From positions 1 to 32,754 of the forward strand of contig JAMONS010000077.1 in the NCBI GenBank assembly GCA_027065555.1: DNA of 32,754 nt, read 5' to 3'. The translations under genes and the position numbers were made by a program. The notes below the pieces were generated by a model, which saw nothing but the letters and a program-made list of their open reading frames with translations, ran no database searches and had not been told where the DNA came from. The stretch is from Hyphomicrobiales bacterium (GTDB taxonomy: Bacteria > Pseudomonadota > Alphaproteobacteria > Rhizobiales > Devosiaceae). Positions 29,983 to 32,754 of this stretch are shown here, in pieces (the first letter of the stretch is position 1; the number at the start of each line of letters is the position of its first letter).

Positions 29983-30007
29983 ATTTACTCCTATATTTTG
30001 TAATTTT

Positions 30008-30164
30008 AGTAATTTAACTTTATAACTACACTTTTATTGTGAGGATATTTTTTTAAGTAGCAAGGGGAGTTTTTGAGGCATACTATAAGTATGGCGATGA
30101 AACTACCCGCCGCTAATTAAGAAAATATGCCGCAAGAAAAGTGTCGTTATAAAGTTAAATTACT
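30008..30164. repeat. 157-bp near-perfect palindrome, element C
   Basis: Both halves mirror each other around 30086. The outer 28 bases (beginning AGTAATTTAACTTTATAAC) match with one mismatch, and the rest matches with scattered mismatches and compensating one-base indels down to CATACT/AGTATG at the centre. Both ends adjoin a TA dinucleotide. The RNA or single strand would form one long hairpin. It lies directly upstream of gapR, within the 334-base gap between gapR and the DUF1036 gene, whose remainder shows only the element B fragment at 30235-30253. A foldback MITE is the likeliest reading. Confidence 0.75.
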
Positions 30165-30234
30165 ATTGTATCAACATCAGATTATCGCATCAATCAAGCA
30201 TTTTTATATCTCTCCCCAATTTTGCCAAACTTTT

Positions 30235-32254: not shown

Positions 32255-32380
32255 TTAGCCCTGACGTGCTTTAAAGCGCTTATTCACCTTATTAATAATA
32301 TATGTACGGCCACGACGACGCACTAATTTATTATCACGATGACGACCCATTAGGGCTTTAAGAGAATTACGAACTTTCAT
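32255..32380 (-). CDS. rpmJ: Ribosomal protein bL36 (zinc-free form)
   Basis: A 41-residue frame on the minus strand, ATG at 32380 and TAA at 32257-32255. The product begins [18 protein letters not shown] and continues with [19 protein letters not shown], the YkgO-like bL36 pattern. It has no cysteine, so it cannot bind zinc. AAAGG lies about ten bases before the start. A consensus promoter lies upstream at 32432-32460. Being very short and highly basic it is easily missed, but the match is clear. Confidence 0.95.
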
Positions 32381-32431
32381 AATCATTACCTTTAATATTT
32401 CCAGCAATTAAACTGCCGCTAATTTTGCGCA

Positions 32432-32460
32432 AACATAAGGCCAACAATTAGTCCTGTCAA
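32432..32460 (-). promoter_or_regulatory. Promoter of rpmJ
   Basis: On the minus strand a perfect TTGACA (32460-32455), a 17-base spacer and TATGTT (32437-32432, 4/6) precede rpmJ by about 52 bases. An identical copy pointing the other way lies at 32711-32739 in the right arm of the terminal inverted repeat. Confidence 0.7.
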
Positions 32461-32484
32461 TAAGCTATAATATTTTACTATAGA

Positions 32485-32686
32485 AGGCTCTTCAAAAGGG
32501 GTGCTACTGTCTGGTTAAACCCAAACACCCCCTTCTCGCCATCCTCGGGCAGCCTAGCGGCGTGAGCGGAAAATGACCCGAGGATCCATAACATGTTAAT
32601 ATTGTTAGCATTGTGGATACTCGGGTCAAGCCCGAGTATGACGAAGGGAAAGGTAGAAATTGTTTATTCTATCTTTTGAAGAGCCT
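32485..32686. repeat. 202-bp MITE-like repeat, element A copy 2
   Basis: Same length and terminal inverted repeats as 14104-14305, in the same orientation, with ten substitutions. Unlike copy 1, the inverted repeat continues perfectly into both flanks. It lies upstream of the rpmJ promoter. Between 32461 and the window end I see no coding sequence. Confidence 0.85.
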
Positions 32687-32754
32687 TCTATAGTAAAATA
32701 TTATAGCTTATTGACAGGACTAATTGTTGGCCTTATGTTTGCGCAAAATTAGCG

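Follow-up and report, generated by a model that had tools for sequence, protein, structure and literature searches.

The mirrored end of a contig upstream of rpmJ most likely reflects a fold-back at a MITE-like element

Does the chromosome of this Hyphomicrobiales bacterium (family Devosiaceae) turn back on itself beside rpmJ, or is the mirrored sequence found there a false contig end? The window, by which we mean the whole stretch of DNA analyzed, is one entire contig of 32,754 bp (G000:C77) from a draft genome of 2,062,225 bp in 139 contigs that is 93% complete. In its last 338 bp, an 82-bp arm is followed by 174 bp of middle sequence and then by the same arm, exactly reverse complemented. 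The arms, at 32417-32498 and 32673-32754, are 100% complementary across a spacer of 174 nt and end inward at 82 bp, where the next inner base pair is mismatched. The original prediction described a perfect 82-bp inverted repeat that runs to the last base and is cut only by the end of the sequence. Both points hold, since the window is the whole contig and the right arm stops at base 32754. No other perfect inverted repeat in the window is as long; the sole other one of at least 20 bp measures 20 bp (30007-30026/30146-30165), and the longest chance inverted match anywhere in 20 simulated order-1 Markov windows was 15 to 19 bp.

Three parts make up each arm: 62 unique bases, the TA target of a 210-bp element (32481-32690, forward strand), and that element's 18-bp terminal inverted repeat. 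The left arm (32417-32498, forward strand) runs from unique DNA through TA into the terminal repeat, and the right arm (32673-32754, reverse strand) continues from the terminal repeat through TA into 62 bp that mirror 32417-32478; we judge the latter to be a fold-back tip rather than the true right flank. Beyond the element, 64 bp are mirrored (the TA and the 62 unique bases, 32691-32754), which bears out the earlier claim that the arms hold unique sequence past the element's ends. The mirrored 62 bp are intergenic DNA upstream of rpmJ. The gene itself, which encodes ribosomal protein L36 (41 amino acids; 32255-32380, reverse strand; Pfam PF00444 Ribosomal_L36, E = 2.9e-16), lies outside the mirrored part.

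The 210-bp element is MITE-like and non-autonomous, and its terminal inverted repeats are identical at 18 of 18 positions. Other copies of 209 to 210 bp lie in the same genome (C77:14100-14309 and C13:42-250), a full-length copy is present in the sister genome G004 (contig C177), and shorter elements with the same ends occur on C81, C11, C43, and C64. Five of these seven other copies have TA on both sides (C77:14100, C13, C81, C11, and C64), while those at C43 and G004 C177 do not. As single-stranded DNA, the element with its TA flanks (32479-32692) folds into one long hairpin at -51.4 kcal/mol, compared with a mean of -22.0 kcal/mol for shuffled sequences (z = -9.5). The element resembles bacterial TA-target MITEs of the IS630/Tc1-mariner type, a tentative label based here on the TA, in being small and gene-free, in its short terminal inverted repeats, in the TA that borders most other copies on both sides, and in having an empty TA site (see below). 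It differs from them in that a profile search of G000 gave no match to the DDE_3 transposase (PF13358) in the readable contigs, contigs that are all N being invisible to the search. The copy at C77:14100-14309, whose terminal repeats have two mismatches, was assembled through without folding. Elsewhere in the window, upstream of a DUF1036 gene, a 159-bp element (30007-30165) has 33-nt inverted ends that are 94% complementary. Its second copy is found at G000:C113:18103-18262 with 93% identity, and the two seem to represent a further MITE-like family.

One base at the left end of the element at 32481-32690 is of note. At base 4 of the terminal repeat, the left ends of all three other 188- to 210-bp copies carry G, but the left end at 32481-32690 carries A, as do the right ends in four of four cases. 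An A at the left end would fit copying from one arm to the other, and it would also fit an original junction of the flank with the right end and a flip of the element's interior. The difference is one position, and plain mutation could account for it.

What should lie right of the element was judged by synteny with four congeners, the sister genome G004 together with G001, G002, and G003. G004 is 91% identical over 274 bp of the rpmJ-side region and has an empty insertion site: the left flank matches at 91% up to the TA, after which different DNA begins. Past this empty site lie a response regulator gene (Pfam-confirmed) and then a thiolase gene, and the response regulator adjoins rpmJ in all four congeners. 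Another contig of the draft genome, G000:C54, is collinear with G004 C131:392-9990 at 90 to 93% identity and stops at the position of the thiolase start codon (10017 in G004 C131). Because C54 ends at the thiolase start and C77 lies on the other side, the two contigs would face each other over about 2 kb of missing sequence, which is probably on a contig of less than 3 kb in the same assembly. DNA and protein searches of the genome's own readable contigs found no orthologue of the response regulator, the best match being 32% identical, and no match to the thiolase; these searches were blind to 16 contigs of 1666 to 2969 bp that read as N, and a small contig may carry both genes. Judging from gene order, the response regulator and thiolase genes, not a mirrored rpmJ, are most likely what should be expected right of the element.

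We also examined how this assembly behaves at its contig ends. The 181 ends inspected, of 278, comprise 139 heads and 42 tails, including both ends of C77; 165 were readable and 16 were all N. A fold-back of more than 9 bp occurs at just one readable end, the C77 tail, which bears the 210-bp element. One pair of ends has exactly 127 bases in common, and 16 ends overlap another end by exactly 126; past these 126-base overlaps the tip of the other contig diverges, by substitutions in 13 of the 16 when read by eye. Given the exact overlaps and the substitutions in the diverging tips, we take the final k to have been about 127, with coexisting strains in the sample. Since the 82-bp arm is shorter than this k, it would represent a dead-end tip and not a closed loop. 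The same element family is also found at the contig ends C13/C67, C130, and C86, and five other elements with paired ends (C77:14100, C81, C11, C64, and C43) were assembled through unfolded.

Two artifact mechanisms were rejected on these data. An assembly graph that closes into a loop at the final k does not suit an 82-bp arm against overlaps of 126 to 127 bases. Library-wide fold-back chimerism of the kind seen in whole-genome amplification is at odds with a single folded end among the 165. A collapse of the two terminal repeats at k = 21 was considered as well; their identical part, judged against the flank in G004, would be 20 bp, just under 21.

Some other contig ends have features of their own. 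The element and its surroundings form one locus that appears at the heads of both C13 and C67, in reverse complement and with a few differences; these contigs probably join, strain variants having kept them apart. At the start of C74, 61 bases match the reverse strand within the first 1000 bases of C77, and C35 begins with 127 bases that recur 174 bases further along in direct orientation. The first 86 and last 86 bases of C2 (4644 bp) are the same, which may mean a circular contig or a repeat.

The mirror is most likely ordinary overall: we favor, with a probability of roughly 0.7, a false contig end created by assembly or library fold-back at the element's inverted ends. This was also the reading put forward in the original prediction, and it is the best supported, as synteny gives the response regulator and thiolase rather than a mirrored rpmJ. 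The MITE-like element would have entered a TA in the interval that separates rpmJ from the divergent response regulator gene. The assembled path would then have turned back at the inverted ends into the DNA from which it came, stopping 64 bp later as a dead-end tip. We infer that reads caused the turn, and likewise either of two routes by which they could have done so. Chimeric reads may have formed when a single strand whose end lay in one terminal repeat annealed to the other and was extended, which would also render both terminal repeats identical; alternatively, reads may have been joined from strains that differ in the orientation of the element. Past the element, the chromosome itself most likely runs on through the response regulator gene and the thiolase gene to C54.

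A fold-back is consistent with a mirror that ends exactly at the contig end, and with a flank predicted by synteny (from G004, gene order in four of four congeners, and C54) that differs from the mirror. The hairpin fold of the element, the presence of the element at the only folded end, and its further copies at other contig ends also speak for it. The arm does not have the length of the 126- to 127-base k overlaps, a length expected of one artifact route and not required, and fold-backs do not recur at other readable ends, as would be expected only of a library-wide artifact. Several observations count against the fold-back: with one case in 165, the library is not globally prone to it; five elements were assembled without folding; and searches of the readable contigs did not locate the missing 2 kb, whose junction with the element is unseen. 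If words of the final k required reads, both junctions are read-supported, and real variants would account for this no less well than rare chimeras.

Both kinds of event have published parallels. Chimeric library reads are reported to form at imperfect genomic inverted repeats (the PDSM model), one part of the read being the inverted complement of the other, and end repair copies mismatches from arm to arm (PMC10908179). The chimeras described there are low-frequency artifact reads in human targeted sequencing, unlike the draft-genome contig end described here, which is known from the assembly alone. In a second report, template switching between short inverted repeats homogenizes the arms and can invert the spacer (PMC8604942). 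Identical arms and a possible spacer inversion are common to that system and ours, whereas the spacer inversions in yeast genes described there changed 2 to 5 bp and the spacer here is 174 bp. A literature search for fold-back library artifacts gave no paper, and the papers listed for palindromic contigs in metagenome-assembled genomes appeared not to bear on this point.

A strain mixture with both element orientations would yield the same contig. Such a real orientation polymorphism, in which the element sits at this TA in both orientations in the sampled population and the contig mixes the two, is a tentative alternative that we consider unlikely. It could arise by inversion between the element ends or by template switching in replication; the junction of the element with the mirrored flank would then be real in some cells, and no cell would have two rpmJ flanks. 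Both junctions survive in an assembly at k of about 127, strain variants coexist at many contig ends, and the left repeat has the right-type base, as expected if the flank first met the element's right end, before a flip of the interior. That last argument is one position, however, and no contig end or match joins the other orientation to the response regulator side. What is seen is the rpmJ-side flank joined to both element ends, with the other flank absent from the readable contigs.

A real inverted duplication, with the rpmJ region present twice in opposite orientations around the element, is what the contig literally shows, and it is also favored by the lack of both response regulator and thiolase in the readable contigs. 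We regard it as highly improbable because gene order in all four congeners and the end of C54 at the missing thiolase predict a 2-kb gap and not a mirror, and a real, fully covered mirror should, by the logic of de Bruijn assembly, give arms of about 127 bp instead of 82. The suggestion that the rpmJ region exists twice was not upheld: within this genome, 32190-32480 matches nothing but itself and the mirror at the end of the contig, a pattern that a collapsed duplication would also give. There is next to no prospect that the mirror arose by chance or is only an ordinary terminal inverted repeat. Twenty bases of each arm (the TA and the 18-bp repeat) are indeed the element's own end, but 62 further bases match perfectly, against the chance maximum of 15 to 19 bp in the simulated windows.

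If the fold-back reading is correct, contig ends in metagenome assemblies that bear inverted-repeat elements can carry false mirrored flanks, and these would mislead claims about gene order or duplication. A stronger proposal, in which the element acts as an invertible switch that flips in the living population between rpmJ and the divergent response regulator gene and could alter their promoters, seems to us quite improbable. Were the orientation polymorphism true, the locus would offer a modest example of a mobile repeat that flips where two genes diverge.
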